DNA of 37,230 nt from Lachnospiraceae bacterium (GTDB lineage: Bacteria; Bacillota; Clostridia; Lachnospirales; Lachnospiraceae), in assembly GCA_017424235.1 (NCBI GenBank), contig JAFPAQ010000177.1, positions 1 to 37,230 on the forward strand, written 5' to 3'. Below are positions 25,398-34,036 of this stretch, in pieces. The notes beneath the pieces were generated by a model, which was given only the letters and a program-made list of their open reading frames with translations, ran no database searches and had not been told where the DNA came from. The stretch's first letter is position 1. Every line of letters starts with the position of its first letter. A program made the translations under genes and the position numbers.

Positions 25398-26327
25398 TTA
25401 TTTATTTTTAAGTGCCTGATCGATATCTGTGATCATATCAATAACTGCCTGTCTTGAAGCATCTGCAAAGTTCACACTGCCAAACTTAGCATATTTCTCA
25501 TTCTGATAAGCAGCAATAATTCCTCTTGATGAGTTAACGATAGCACCAAGTCCGTCCTCATTAAAGAAATGCACAAGATCCTTGCCCTGTCCGCCCTGGG
25601 CACCATAACCAGGTACAAGAATAAATGAATTTGGCATGATCTTTCTAAGAATCTTACCCTGTTCAGGATATGTAGCACCTACTACGGCACCTACATAGCT
25701 ATAGCCTTTACTGCCCATATGCTGACTTCCCCATTCAGCGACCTTTTCTCCAACAAGCTCATAGAGTGGTCTGCCATCAACAAGTCTGTCCTGAAATTCT
25801 CCACTACTTGGATTAGATGTCTTAACAAGTACGAAAATACCTTTATTTTCTTCCTTGCATACATCGATGAAGGGCTGAACTCCGTCAGAACCAAGATAAG
25901 GGTTCACTGTTACAAAATCCTCATCAAAGCCTGCACATAAATTGTTTCCTACCTGTACCTTACCAACATGTGCTGTAGCATATGCTGCTGATGTAGAACC
26001 GATATCGCCTCTTTTGATATCACCAATCACTACAAGGTCTTTCTGTTTACAGTAATCAACTGTCTTTTTAAATGCTATAAGGCCAGGAATTCCAAACTGC
26101 TCATACATAGCTATCTGTGGCTTAACTGCTGGAATAAGATCATATACTTTGTCAATTATCTCTTTGTTATAAAGCCAAATTGCTTCAGCAGCACCCTCTA
26201 AGGTCTCACCTTTTTCTTCAAAAGCGATCTTCTTAATGTGATCCGGTACAAATTTCATCATAGGATCAAGACCTACCACGATTGGGGCACCTGTTTTCTG
26301 AATCTTATCAATAAGTTTATTAATCAT
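25398..26327 (-). CDS. pyrF: Orotidine 5'-phosphate decarboxylase
   Basis: A 309-residue enzyme making UMP from OMP, the last step of pyrimidine synthesis. It shows the family signature VIGDIKRGDIGSTSAAYA with the catalytic Lys and Asp residues, GLDPMMKFVP at the N-terminus, VNPYLGSDGVQPF and the phosphate-loop region VPGYGAQGG. The length fits the longer bacterial group (subfamily 2, ~300 residues) rather than the ~235-residue E. coli type. It lies 37 bases downstream of nrdD on the same strand, so it is probably transcribed from the nrdD promoter, linking UMP and deoxynucleotide supply. No attenuator precedes it, unlike pyrB in the same window. Confidence 0.95.
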   Translation of the reverse strand: MINKLIDKIQKTGAPIVVGLDPMMKFVPDHIKKIAFEEKGETLEGAAEAIWLYNKEIIDKVYDLIPAVKPQIAMYEQFGIPGLIAFKKTVDYCKQKDLVVIGDIKRGDIGSTSAAYATAHVGKVQVGNNLCAGFDEDFVTVNPYLGSDGVQPFIDVCKEENKGIFVLVKTSNPSSGEFQDRLVDGRPLYELVGEKVAEWGSQHMGSKGYSYVGAVVGATYPEQGKILRKIMPNSFILVPGYGAQGGQGKDLVHFFNEDGLGAIVNSSRGIIAAYQNEKYAKFGSVNFADASRQAVIDMITDIDQALKNK

Positions 26328-26364: not shown

Positions 26365-28806
26365 TTATAGTGTAACACATTTAAGAAAATCTGTATACTT
26401 TTTAATATCTGACACATTCACATATTTCTGCCTTGACTGACCGTTTACCACTACAAGCGTAGGTGCCTGCATAACACCATATTCAGAAGCAAGCTCCATA
26501 TTTTCCTCTGCATCTATCAAAGTATAATCAATTCCCTTTAAAAACTCCTTTGCTAACCTGCAATTAGGGCATGTTTTTGTAGTAAAAAGCATAGGTTTAC
26601 CTGTATCAACAGATATTTCTTCATCATCAATAACAAATTCTATATTTTTCTCAATTTTTCTTGCTGAATCAATTGCCTGTTGAAAATTTAATTTATTAAA
26701 ATCGTCCTTATATTTTTTATTGTTATTTATATCGTTATTGCCAACAACATATTCTGTCCTGTTTTTGTACTCCTGTAGCTTTCCGTCGTTCCAGTTCTGT
26801 ACGGGTCTGTAATATCCTGTAATACGGCTGTATACCTCTGTAACCTTTCCGCACTTCGGACAATATTTCTGTTCGCCGGCAAGATAACCATGCTCTTTGC
26901 ATATTGAATATGTAGGTGACATTGTATAATATGGCAGTCTGTAATTTTCTGCAATTGTTCTTACAAGCTTCGCTGCTGCTTTCCAGTCAGGAAGCTTTTC
27001 TCCAAGAAAGGCATGAAATACAGTTCCTGAAGTATATAAAGTCTGCAATGAATCCTGTATATCAAGAGCATCAAAAATATCAGTAGTGTAATCGACCGGT
27101 AAATGTGAAGAATTGGTATAATATGGAACATCTCCATCATTACCTGCCGTAATTATATCCTTCCATTTCTGCTTATCATGCTTTGCAAGTCTGTATGAAG
27201 TACTTTCTGCGGGTGTAGCTTCAAGGTTATAAAGATCACCATACATCTCCTGATAATCTGACAGACGCTCTCTCATATGATTGAGCACTTCTTTTGTAAA
27301 TTCCTGCGTTTCTGTATGTGTCATATCTTTTTTTAACCATTTTGCATTAAGTCCTGCTTCATTCATTCCCACCAGACCAATTGTTGAGAAATGACTTTCA
27401 AAGGTGCCAAGATAACGTTTTGTATATGGATAAAGCCCTTCATTTAAAAGCTTTGTGATAATCTTTCTCTTTATATCAAGCGACCTTGCTGCTATGTCCA
27501 TCATTCTGTCCAGACGTCTGAAAAAATCATCTTTGTCCGTCGCCTGATAGGCTATTCTTGGCATATTTATAGTAACTACACCAATACTTCCTGTACTCTC
27601 ACCGGAGCCAAAATATCCACCGGTCTTTTTGCGAAGTTCACGAAGATCAAGTCTCAATCTGCAGCACATACTTCTGACATCAGATGGCTCCATATCTGAA
27701 TTTATGTAATTAGAGAAATAGGGTGTACCATATTTAGCTGTCATTTCAAATAAAAGGCGGTTATTCTCAGTATCTGACCAGTCAAAATCTCTCGTTATTG
27801 AATAAGTAGGTATGGGATACTGAAATCCTCTTCCATTTGCATCTCCCTCTATCATAATTTCGATAAAGGCTTTATTTACCATATCCATTTCTGCCTTACA
27901 ATCCTTATAACAGAAATCCATTTCCTTTCCACCAACTATGGCAGGAAGCTCTGCAAGATCATTTGGAACTGTCCAGTCAAGAGTAATATTGCTAAAAGGC
28001 GCCTGTGTTCCCCATCTGCTGGGAGTATTTACACCATAAATAAAAGATTCTATGCACTTTTTTACTTCCTCGTAAGACAGGTTATCCACTTTTACAAAAG
28101 GAGCAAGATATGTATCAAATGAAGAAAATGCCTGTGCACCTGCCCATTCATTCTGCATTATTCCAAGGAAATTTACCATCTGTGTACATAACACTGAAAG
28201 ATGTTTTGCCGGAGCAGAAGTAATCTTTCCTGTAATTCCTCCAAGTCCTTCTTTGATAAGCTGTTTTAATGACCATCCTGCACAATAACCTGTAAGCATT
28301 GACAAATCATGTATATGTATGTCTGCATTTCTGTGAGCCTGTGCAATCTCCTCATCATAAATTTCTGACAACCAGTAATTAGCAGTTACGGCACCTGAAT
28401 TAGACAGTATAAGTCCTCCTACTGAATATGTAACTGTAGAATTTTCTTTTACTCTCCAGTCTTCTATTTTTACATAACTGTTTACCACATCTTTATAATC
28501 AAGTATTGTGGATTTCATATTGCGCATCTTTTCTCTCTGCTTTCTATAGAGTATAAATGCCTTAGCCGCCTGTGTATAACCGGCCTGCTCAAGTATCTTT
28601 TCCACACTGTCCTGAATATCCTCTACATGTATCTTTCCTGCCTCTAACTTATTCTGCATATCCGCAGTCACTCTCAGTGTAAGCAAATCCACTATATCCT
28701 GATTATACTGCACCTGCGTTGCGTCAAATGCCTTGATAATAGCCCCACCTATCTTATTTAACTGAAAATCGGCAGCTATCCCATCACGTTTTATTACCGT
28801 AAACAT
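26365..28806 (-). CDS. nrdD: Anaerobic ribonucleoside-triphosphate reductase fused to a redoxin domain
   Basis: An 813-residue class III reductase making dNTPs from NTPs under anaerobic conditions. Residues 1-95 form an ATP-cone (VIKRDGIAADF start) for allosteric control. The barrel core follows. Near the end are the zinc Cys pairs (CKEHGYLAGEQKYCPKCG) and the glycyl-radical loop RITGYYRPVQNWNDGK with Gly 664. Residues ~735-813 are an added glutaredoxin/NrdH-like domain with CPNC (746-749), which fits the NrdD subgroup that uses a redoxin as electron donor instead of formate. The activase gene nrdG is not next to it or anywhere in the window. AAGGAG precedes the ATG by 9 bases. Two NrdR-like boxes flank its promoter. 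Confidence 0.94.
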   Translation of the reverse strand: MFTVIKRDGIAADFQLNKIGGAIIKAFDATQVQYNQDIVDLLTLRVTADMQNKLEAGKIHVEDIQDSVEKILEQAGYTQAAKAFILYRKQREKMRNMKSTILDYKDVVNSYVKIEDWRVKENSTVTYSVGGLILSNSGAVTANYWLSEIYDEEIAQAHRNADIHIHDLSMLTGYCAGWSLKQLIKEGLGGITGKITSAPAKHLSVLCTQMVNFLGIMQNEWAGAQAFSSFDTYLAPFVKVDNLSYEEVKKCIESFIYGVNTPSRWGTQAPFSNITLDWTVPNDLAELPAIVGGKEMDFCYKDCKAEMDMVNKAFIEIMIEGDANGRGFQYPIPTYSITRDFDWSDTENNRLLFEMTAKYGTPYFSNYINSDMEPSDVRSMCCRLRLDLRELRKKTGGYFGSGESTGSIGVVTINMPRIAYQATDKDDFFRRLDRMMDIAARSLDIKRKIITKLLNEGLYPYTKRYLGTFESHFSTIGLVGMNEAGLNAKWLKKDMTHTETQEFTKEVLNHMRERLSDYQEMYGDLYNLEATPAESTSYRLAKHDKQKWKDIITAGNDGDVPYYTNSSHLPVDYTTDIFDALDIQDSLQTLYTSGTVFHAFLGEKLPDWKAAAKLVRTIAENYRLPYYTMSPTYSICKEHGYLAGEQKYCPKCGKVTEVYSRITGYYRPVQNWNDGKLQEYKNRTEYVVGNNDINNNKKYKDDFNKLNFQQAIDSARKIEKNIEFVIDDEEISVDTGKPMLFTTKTCPNCRLAKEFLKGIDYTLIDAEENMELASEYGVMQAPTLVVVNGQSRQKYVNVSDIKKYTDFLKCVTL

Positions 28807-32023: not shown

Positions 32024-32308
32024 ATGAACGAAAATACTGTTGTGCGTCTTATCAAACATTTAGATGTAACAGATCTATCTGGTGAAAAAGTAATGATTGA
32101 TTTTTCAACCGGTAAGTATTTCCTATTAAAAGGATCAGCTAATGATATTTGGGATTTTCTTGTAGCTTCAGGAGATTCTCCACTTTCGGTAAATTCAATT
32201 AAGGAAAAGCTCCTTGAAGAATATGATGTTGATGCTGATACTTGTCTTAAATCAGTTATAGCTTTTCTTGAACAAATGAAAAAGAATGAATTTATCGAAG
32301 TTTTATAA
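32024..32308 (+). CDS. PqqD-family (RiPP recognition element-like) protein
   Basis: A 94-residue protein with the PqqD pattern: a three-stranded start (KVMIDFSTGKYFLLKG, with the usual 'leader-peptide groove' strand), an N-D-I-W helix (SANDIWDFL), then a winged-helix tail with IKEKLLEEYDVDADTCLKSV and FLEQMKKNEFIEV. PqqD-like domains bind leader peptides of ribosomally made peptides for radical-SAM or other modifying enzymes. No such enzyme, precursor or transporter is within the window, so this copy is an orphan. Start at 32024 follows GGAGG by 5 bases. It has its own promoter and terminator. Confidence 0.82.
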   Translation: MNENTVVRLIKHLDVTDLSGEKVMIDFSTGKYFLLKGSANDIWDFLVASGDSPLSVNSIKEKLLEEYDVDADTCLKSVIAFLEQMKKNEFIEVL

Positions 32309-32378: not shown

Positions 32379-32415
32379 GACCATATAATATCACATGTTA
32401 TTATATGGTCTTTTT
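32379..32415 (+). terminator. Terminator after the PqqD-like gene
   Basis: A perfect 12-pair stem GACCATATAATA (32379-32390) with its complement (32399-32410), 8-base loop, then five T. Confidence 0.82.
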
Positions 32416-32426
32416 ATATTATATAC

Positions 32427-32455
32427 TTGAAACAATATCTTTGATATGATATTAT
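32427..32455 (+). promoter_or_regulatory. Sigma-A promoter for the pyr leader and pyrBI
   Basis: TTGAAA (32427-32432), 17-base spacer, TATTAT (32450-32455). Start near 32462 in an A-run, about 32 bases before the leader ORF and about 195 before pyrB. Confidence 0.78.
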
Positions 32456-32493
32456 TATAAAAATATGTGTTGGGGCTGAAAGGAGACAAAAAT

Positions 32494-32595
32494 ATGAACA
32501 GTATTGCTATTATCAACAAATCAATTGCAAAAACTCATATTCCTGTTTCTTTTTGTAATTATAATTCAGCTTTTTTAATAGTTTTTAAATTTTAA
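32494..32595 (+). CDS. Putative pyrimidine-operon leader peptide (PyrL-like)
   Basis: A 33-codon ORF beginning MNSIAIINKSIAKTHIPV and ending AFLIVFKF-stop. AAAGGAG lies 7-9 bases before the ATG, the best ribosome site in the region. Its second half is encoded by U-rich RNA with runs of five to six U, and its TAA stop (32593-32595) overlaps the first bases of the terminator stem that precedes pyrB. This is the arrangement of the E. coli pyrBI leader, where RNA polymerase pausing at U-runs under low UTP lets the ribosome catch up and block the terminator. The peptide itself is not expected to have a function. It shares no obvious sequence with enterobacterial PyrL; the match is in architecture. 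Confidence 0.68.
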   Translation: MNSIAIINKSIAKTHIPVSFCNYNSAFLIVFKF

Positions 32596-32622
32596 TAAGA
32601 GAGATTTTTCTCTTATTTTTTT
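32594..32622 (+). terminator. Attenuator terminator before pyrB
   Basis: AATAAGAGA (32594-32602) pairs with TCTCTTATT (32609-32617) around a 6-base loop, followed by a T-run to 32622. It lies between the leader ORF and pyrB, so pyrBI can be expressed only when it is bypassed. A ribosome at the leader stop codon would cover the 5' arm. Confidence 0.82.
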
Positions 32623-32658
32623 ATGCCCCCAAACAAAAAGAAAGGTATGGATAACATT

Positions 32659-33573
32659 ATGAGACATTTAATGAGCCCTTTAGACTTTACGGTCGATGAA
32701 CTCGAAAAATTATTTACTATTGCTCAGGATATAGAAGCAAATCCGGAAAAATATTCACATGCATGTGAAGGAAAGAAGCTCGCTACCTGCTTTTATGAAC
32801 CAAGCACAAGAACAAGACTTAGCTTTGAAGCTGCAATGCTTAATCTAGGTGGAAAAGTATTAGGCTTTTCTGATGCTAATTCATCATCAGCAGCGAAGGG
32901 AGAAAGTGTTTCTGATACAATTCGTGTTATCTCAAGCTTTGCTGATATATGTGCAATGAGACATCCAAAGGAAGGTGCTCCAATGGTAGCAGCCAGCCGT
33001 TCTTCTATTCCTGTCATAAATGCAGGTGATGGCGGTCATCAGCATCCTACACAGACTTTAACAGACCTTTTAACAATCCGTTCAATAAAAGGACGCTTAA
33101 GCAACTTTACAATTGGTCTTTGTGGAGATTTAAAATTTGGACGAACAGTACATTCCCTTATCAACGCATTGGTTCGTTATGAAAATATTAACTTTATATT
33201 TATATCTCCAGAAGAGCTGACAATACCTGAGTATATAATTGAAATGCTAAAAGAAAAAAATATTCCTTACCGCGAAGTAAGAAAGCTTGAGGATTCTATT
33301 CCTGAACTTGATATATTATATATGACACGAGTACAGAAGGAACGTTTCTTTAACGAAGAAGATTATATCAGACTCAAAGACTACTATATACTTGATAAAG
33401 AAAAAATGAGTCTTGCAAAATCTGATATGATAGTTCTTCATCCGCTTCCAAGAGTAAATGAAATTTCTGTCGAAGTTGATGATGACCCTCGAGCAGTATA
33501 CTTCAAGCAGGTTCAATATGGAGTTTATGTAAGAATGGCTCTTCTGCTCACACTTCTTGAAATTGAAATATAG
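32659..33573 (+). CDS. pyrB: Aspartate carbamoyltransferase catalytic subunit
   Basis: A 304-residue catalytic chain joining carbamoyl phosphate and aspartate, the committed step of pyrimidine synthesis. It has the carbamoyl-phosphate motif [16 protein letters not shown] (STRTR at 49-53), a [12 protein letters not shown] segment and the C-terminal HPLPRVNEI loop for aspartate. The length matches the family (about 305). I place the start at ATG 32659 ([10 protein letters not shown]), 13 bases after AAAGG; the frame opens at 32623 within the attenuator T-run, and ATG 32647 lies on the ribosome site. It is 19 bases upstream of pyrI and downstream of the leader-attenuator. Confidence 0.95.
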
Positions 33574-33592: not shown

Positions 33593-34036
33593 ATGTTAAA
33601 TGTAGGAAAAATAGAAGAAGGTTTTGTACTTGACCATATAAAAGCCGGTAAGAGCTTAAGTATATATAAACATCTTGGACTGGATAAGCTTGACTGTACT
33701 GTTGCCATAATCAAAAATGCCAAGAGTGACAAAATGGGAAAAAAGGATATCTTAAAGGTTGAGTGTAATATTGATACCTTAAATCTTGATATTCTTGGAT
33801 TTATAGACCACAACATAACTGTAAATGTTATAAAAAACTGTGAAATAGTTCATAAACTTCCACTGTCTCTTCCAAAGGAAATTAAGAATGTATTAAAATG
33901 CAAAAATCCACGTTGCATTACCTCTATCGAGCAGGAGCTTCCTCATATATTTGTTCTCACAGATGAGAAAAAAGAGATTTATCGTTGCAAATACTGCGAA
34001 GAAAAATATGATAAAAAAACTAACTTTTTACTTTAG
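33593..34036 (+). CDS. pyrI: Aspartate carbamoyltransferase regulatory subunit
   Basis: A 147-residue regulatory chain. The N-terminal allosteric domain (GFVLDHIKAGKSLSIYKHLG) is the nucleotide-binding part, where CTP/UTP inhibits and ATP activates in characterised enzymes. The C-terminal zinc domain has Cys at 103, 108, 132 and 135 (CKNPRC and CKYC), which docks on PyrB. Length and motifs are standard. It starts 19 bases after pyrB. PyrI is common in enterobacteria and archaea but present only in some Clostridia among Firmicutes. With the leader attenuator, the operon would be controlled at both enzyme and RNA level. Confidence 0.95.
   Translation: MLNVGKIEEGFVLDHIKAGKSLSIYKHLGLDKLDCTVAIIKNAKSDKMGKKDILKVECNIDTLNLDILGFIDHNITVNVIKNCEIVHKLPLSLPKEIKNVLKCKNPRCITSIEQELPHIFVLTDEKKEIYRCKYCEEKYDKKTNFLL

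Follow-up and report, generated by a model that had tools for sequence, protein, structure and literature searches.

The pyrBI locus and its leader

The window, i.e. the whole stretch of DNA analysed here, comprises 37,230 nt of Lachnospiraceae bacterium GCA_017424235.1 (contig JAFPAQ010000177.1, positions 1-37,230, forward strand). On its plus strand it carries pyrB (32659..33573), encoding the catalytic subunit of aspartate carbamoyltransferase (TIGR00670, 355.7 bits), followed by pyrI (33593..34036), encoding the regulatory subunit (NF002063, 202.4 bits), both passing the NCBIfam cut-offs; the pyrB start is taken as the ATG at 32659 and an alternative start is possible at 32647. Upstream and on the same strand, a sigma-70-type promoter, TTGAAA-17-TATTAT (32427..32455, with the -35 box TTGAAA at 32427-32432 and the -10 box TATTAT at 32450-32455), precedes a leader ORF of 33 codons, MNSIAIINKSIAKTHIPVSFCNYNSAFLIVFKF (32494..32595; ATG at 32494, TAA at 32593-32595), preceded by a Shine-Dalgarno (SD) sequence AAGGAG from 32480. 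The distal part of this ORF is U-rich (32546..32593) and, from its U content, is presumed to be a region of UTP-dependent pausing, with U runs starting at 32546 (3), 32550 (5), 32571 (6), 32582 (5), and 32590 (4). The leader stop codon overlaps the first bases of the stem of an intrinsic terminator, the candidate attenuator (32594..32622, plus strand; 10-bp stem from 32594, -8.2 kcal/mol, U tail with the T-run to 32622), which has equivalents in relatives. The initial annotation had described this very succession of promoter, SD-led leader of 33 codons, U-rich distal codons, stop codon on the terminator and then pyrB, which direct reading and script both confirmed.

Regarding generic searches, a promoter scan gave no excess over shuffles (9 found vs. 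a mean of 9.4) and a terminator scan did not list the pyrB terminator of the window, the stem of which is poor in G-C pairs. Within the window, no Rfam family attained its gathering score, and for 32400-32700 there was no match at an E value up to 5. An SD with a frame reaching the terminator occurs by chance in 4.5% of shuffles of the window leader and in 8.9% on average for 18 leaders; because such arrangements recur in shuffles, a single leader constitutes weak evidence and the strong evidence is to be sought in conservation among relatives. Of note, in the minimum-energy fold of this region, a GGGGC stretch (32470-32476) pairs with GCCCC (32625-32632) beyond the terminator, thus enclosing both leader and terminator.

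As for the genomic surroundings, a PqqD/lasso-peptide chaperone-like gene lies directly upstream (32024-32308), its best NCBIfam match being below the cut-off, and pyrF (25491-26321, minus strand) is located downstream of a gene (26365-28806) resembling that for anaerobic ribonucleotide reductase. In the stretches of this genome that were scanned, no leader terminator was called for carA, pyrC, pyrE or pyrF.

Conservation of the leader in the genus

The genus sample comprised 38 genomes, including that of the window, 32 of which possess this pyrB at an E value of 1e-100 or better. By eye and script together, a complete leader with terminator is present in 20 of these 32 genomes, amounting to 19 distinct leaders since G455 and G016 share the same sequence over 420 nt; three of them, namely G032 (no stem from the script), G011 (missed) and G021 (ORF missed, weak SD), were placed by hand and then recounted. 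The SD score is 4 or more in 18 of the 19 distinct leaders, the weak SD of G021 scoring 3 for a threshold of 4 in the shuffle test. In G018, the terminator and the end of the leader are visible and the upstream part is cut by the contig end; G027 has the terminator and lacks an SD-led leader; G034, where the contig ends 259 nt upstream, is unclassified. Over the 240 nt examined, leader and terminator are both absent in eight of the 32 genomes (G009, G019, G026, G035, G012, G031, G006 and G010), which counts against the attenuator reading and means that this control is dispensable. In G023 (L032), an odd leader frame of 35 codons overlaps the likely pyrB start and the SD sits inside the 5' arm of a hairpin resembling a terminator, with 60 nt folding at -16.8 kcal/mol; on the predicted fold, this is an extreme form of competition between ribosome binding and terminator.

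The pyrB tree was rooted at its midpoint and included 14 outgroup loci, its bootstrap support not being settled. In it, G000, G001 and the group of G021, G014, G024 and G011, all of them leader-bearing, branch basally in the genus, and the leaderless genomes fall into two groups; on that account, the common ancestor of the genus probably had the leader, with two subsequent losses. By eye, the promoter arrangement before pyrB is similar in relatives with and without the leader. Besides, several pyrB promoters of the genus, e.g. that of L029, have a sequence similar to ATATCAAAAGTATA after the -10 box, with the leader present or absent, and positions 1-128 of L010 hold a TwoAYGGAY RNA (RF01731), about 315 nt upstream of pyrB and cut by the contig end.

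A hairpin with a U tail equivalent to that of the window is found in all 19 distinct leaders, these terminators being AT-rich and weak (core of -6.3 to -10.2 kcal/mol in 18 leaders). With positions numbered from the first stem base, 12 of the 19 leaders have the final base of their stop codon at -10 to +2; in G011 this base falls at +10, within the 5' arm, and in six leaders it falls at +47 to +107, so that these cross the terminator as E. coli pyrL does (+46 when measured likewise), whereas the window leader stops at the stem. Stop codons located at terminators are nothing unusual in Lachnospiraceae, since the median stop-to-stem distance is 7 nt over 140 scripted gene ends of the family. From the end of the stem to the pyrB start, 12 of the 19 leaders, including that of the window, leave 19-41 nt and hence little room for a promoter; the remaining seven leave 47-149 nt, a length with room for a promoter behind the terminator. 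For the window, the anatomy supports the view that transcription has to pass the terminator to reach pyrB.

The last 50 nt before the window stem contain 56% U, a value reached by 0.46% of all 50-nt segments on both strands of the window, and the corresponding 50 nt range from 46 to 68% U in 18 leaders vs. a mean of 29% in the pyrBI coding sequence of the window. The distal half of the window leader reaches 58% U vs. 32% in E. coli pyrL; as the latter contains, by our own measure, only 34% U up to its stem, U content alone is insufficient to define the mechanism. Reiterative transcription was also considered as a UTP sensor and rejected, no U run being seen by eye at the likely transcript start.

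A conserved frame with a free peptide

All 19 distinct leaders keep an open leader frame that enters or traverses the terminator; counted over 18 leaders, this frame is open up to the terminator in 18, vs. 7 and 1 for the other two frames. Over 9 pairs of related leaders, substitutions at codon positions 1/2/3 amount to 45/57/43, as compared with 124/50/936 for pyrB of the same pairs. Internal gaps in the leader pairs measure 6, 3 and 6 nt, gaps of 1 nt being confined to the stem end. These pairs overlap, as three genomes are used twice each and the 6-nt gap of G003 is counted in two pairs, and a simulation of frame-keeping is weak taken alone (product over the 9 pairs of 0.02). The initial annotation had suggested testing whether a leader ORF is conserved while its amino acids vary, and this is what the relatives display.

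Taken as comparative evidence, these patterns support a leader that is translated, whose frame is needed up to the terminator and whose peptide is irrelevant. Together with the position of the stop codon, the kept frame and the free peptide fit a device sensing where the ribosome is rather than what it produces. Two other candidates were set aside on the way, namely an amino-acid leader-peptide attenuator, as inspection by eye revealed neither a conserved regulatory codon run nor a shared single-residue run in these free peptides, and a gene for a small protein, which the codon-position result rules against.

A predicted hairpin hiding the Shine-Dalgarno sequence

In the predicted fold of the window leader, the SD region pairs with the U-rich distal half of the leader, the core of the 5' arm (32470..32498, plus strand) containing the SD and the core of the U-rich 3' arm spanning 32535..32555 on the same strand, with a pairing that is possibly longer. 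The duplex is computed at -22.4 kcal/mol vs. a shuffled mean of -13.4. In a narrow test on 18 leaders in 8 groups, pairing of the SD with its own distal leader averaged -18.6 kcal/mol vs. -15.4 when species were swapped, a mean reached by 0 of 20000 permutations; in a wider test, with a longer SD segment, on 22 leaders in 12 groups, the values were -21.45 vs. -17.94, reached by 66 of 200000, these permutation figures not being exact probabilities because the groups are related. Relative to shuffles, the mean z of the wider test was -1.71 for the leaders vs. +0.74 for the start of pyrB itself (12 genomes).

The pairing is no better than shuffles in G017, G029, G020, L184 and G032 and hardly above them in G030 and L227 (z -0.7); within-group swaps of SD partners cost little, except for G016/G022, and only 4 of 21 leaders reach a z of -2 or lower for the whole-leader fold. 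The window differs from E. coli pyrL in having this predicted hairpin, though pyrL too pairs somewhat above shuffles (-28.5 vs. -23.6, sd 3.8). The leader SD is thus predicted, in a feature new here, to pair with its own U-rich distal half, more strongly on average than with that of swapped species and not in every leader. The earlier reading of the leader structure is otherwise supported; it had missed this hairpin.

With the SD paired to the U-rich distal leader, UTP may also time ribosome loading. We tentatively put forward, as a possibility that falls short of an even chance, a UTP-timed gate in which the U-rich distal half of the leader would itself mask the SD. If UTP were plentiful, the U-rich arm would be made fast and the SD closed before a ribosome loads, leaving the terminator to act; if UTP were scarce, the polymerase would be slow in the U-rich arm and a ribosome would load, then block the terminator. 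The predicted SD hairpin may confine the loading of ribosomes to the interval preceding synthesis of the U-rich half.

Leaders and terminators in other Lachnospiraceae

Outside the genus, 128 pyrB loci of other Lachnospiraceae (28 + 100) were sampled from the best of 366 genomes with a match, some matches being skipped, and at least three of them (L190, L184 and L227) have a convincing leader and terminator. The script called an ORF and a terminator without nitroreductase gene at five of the 128 loci (L184, L243, L263, L190 and L259), of which L184 and L190 were kept and the other three dropped as unconvincing; the L227 leader was added by eye. Seven nitroreductase loci with an ORF call were left uncounted, the ORFs overlying the end of the nitroreductase gene. 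In an earlier scan of genus, family and order (114 located of 115 loci, overlapping with the 128), L093 (genus), L100, L134, L130 and L148 had been called without nitroreductase gene; L100, L134 and L148 were dropped from the leader set and the L130 leader is the same as that of L184. At class level, a terminator was called in 31 of 63 loci and an ORF in three (L289, L297 and L343), none of which has a PyrR element according to Rfam.

A different arrangement occurs in 50 of the 128 loci L040-L067 and L178-L277, where pyrB follows a nitroreductase gene (one tail checked with Pfam). Between the two genes, a terminator is found in 37 of the 50, at a median of 5 nt behind the stop codon and 43 nt before pyrB, and none in 13. 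In the intercistronic attenuator of E. coli rph-pyrE, a translated whole gene ends just before a terminator preceding a pyrimidine gene. The nitroreductase-terminator-pyrB arrangement resembles it more than the window leader does, the latter sharing with rph-pyrE a translated frame that ends right at the terminator before a pyrimidine gene, the rph frame being a whole gene. A possible rph-pyrE-like attenuator is only a lead here, because short stop-to-stem distances and similar spacing are common in the family: with noisy scripted genes, the next start lies within 50 nt in 48% of 31 other tandem pairs with terminator vs. 53% of 43 pyrB pairs. At L195 (G279), a promoter-like sequence is followed by a terminator and pyrB, with no leader ORF seen between.

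Mechanism and alternative explanations

In E. coli pyrBI, protein-free sensing of UTP via ribosome and polymerase is established. We consider it likely that pyrBI of the window is preceded by a translation-dependent transcription attenuator whose operation resembles that of E. coli pyrL. Control of pyrBI by attenuation that depends on translation is in itself well supported by the comparison of leaders; the U-richness of the leader and the example of E. coli lead us to infer UTP as the signal, pausing at U and the direction of the response being inferred too. The terminator before pyrB would end transcripts unless a leader ribosome arrives while the polymerase is still there and covers the 5' arm. 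Low UTP would slow the polymerase in the U-rich leader, letting the ribosome catch up and pyrBI be transcribed; at high UTP, the polymerase would run ahead and termination would follow. E. coli polymerase pauses on pyrL at low UTP (PMC10135430). In the same species, ribosomes almost completely repress a terminator that lies only a few bases past a stop codon, such repression extending up to about 30 nt behind the stop, with a steep relation at pyrBI (PMC4824070).

Bacillota are classed phylum-wide as runaway transcribers (PMC13323073), i.e. with ribosomes not closely behind the polymerase (PMC13323073, PMC7858274), which counts against a coupled attenuator, and the 7-nt stop-to-stem median of the family agrees with runaway transcription. 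Despite this, the leader can function provided that, at low UTP, the polymerase is held back by its U-rich template; timing would possibly come from the SD hairpin.

Instead of UTP, the signal of the attenuator could be ribosome supply or translation capacity, the U-richness then keeping the RNA open or pairing with the SD. The predicted SD-hiding hairpin does make ribosome loading a control point and a purine-rich SD requires a pyrimidine-rich partner, but the operon supplies precursors of UTP and the polymerase has to copy the U-rich half just before the terminator, as a UTP sensor needs, so that we hold this explanation to be unlikely. Less probable still, and in our estimate very much so, is a Rho-assisted device in which untranslated, pyrimidine-rich and G-poor leader RNA would be a Rho target and the intrinsic terminator a second layer: G makes up only 4-14% of the distal leader halves (18 leaders) and runaway species are described as exposing nascent RNA to Rho (PMC13323073), yet a hairpin with a U tail accompanies every one of the distinct leaders. 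That the leader is a conventional small gene ending in a terminator of its own, pyrB being transcribed from a separate promoter, appears highly implausible; stop codons near terminators are indeed usual in the family and the longer spacers of seven leaders would accommodate a promoter, but the peptide shows no sign of constraint, six leaders cross the terminator and the spacer before pyrB is short in 12 of the 19.

Finally, Bacillus-like attenuation by PyrR has a next to negligible probability, for although a PyrR element (RF00515) precedes pyrB at 6 of 20 class-level Clostridia loci, picked from the 63 for their called terminator, PyrR protein was found in 0 of the 38 genus genomes (E 1e-15; completeness 66-100%; 6 of 14 controls positive) and the element neither in the window's own genome nor at 20 leader loci, of which 18 belong to the genus, the other two being L190 and L227. 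The initial annotation had seen no PyrR loop and no competing antiterminator; the former is borne out by these searches and, as to the latter, no antiterminator competing with the terminator was seen in the leader folds.

Comparison with known systems and significance

The window leader shares with E. coli pyrBI/pyrL a promoter and SD, a short leader (33 vs. 44 codons) the frame of which reaches the terminator, an intrinsic terminator directly before pyrB and the same operon. It differs from pyrL in a host belonging to another phylum. No significant homology to pyrL was detected among 18 leaders (best blastp E value of 2.0) and common descent is not claimed; the likeness looks like convergent regulation. 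PyrR attenuators (RF00515) likewise place a terminator in a pyr leader, unlike which neither protein nor element was found here. In bacilli, hisS is described with a histidine leader peptide bearing a stretch of histidine codons (PMC2965389); the window leader would similarly represent leader-peptide attenuation in Firmicutes, with the difference that its codons are free. Literature searches, the coverage of which was incomplete so that the absence is not firm, returned no publication on a pyrL-type leader in Firmicutes.

A kept frame with a free peptide suggests that, in the manner of E. coli, these Firmicutes sense UTP through a ribosome that draws level with the RNA polymerase. With PyrR protein found in only 4 of 150 Lachnospiraceae genomes, the leader offers one answer to how pyrimidine synthesis may be controlled in this family. 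The gate on ribosome loading, if true, would make a translation-coupled attenuator workable in a phylum where the polymerase normally outruns the ribosomes. Since Bacillota are classed as runaway transcribers, in which coupling should mostly fail, the conserved pyrBI leader is a compact, naturally occurring case in which to ask if Clostridia couple the two once the polymerase slows down.
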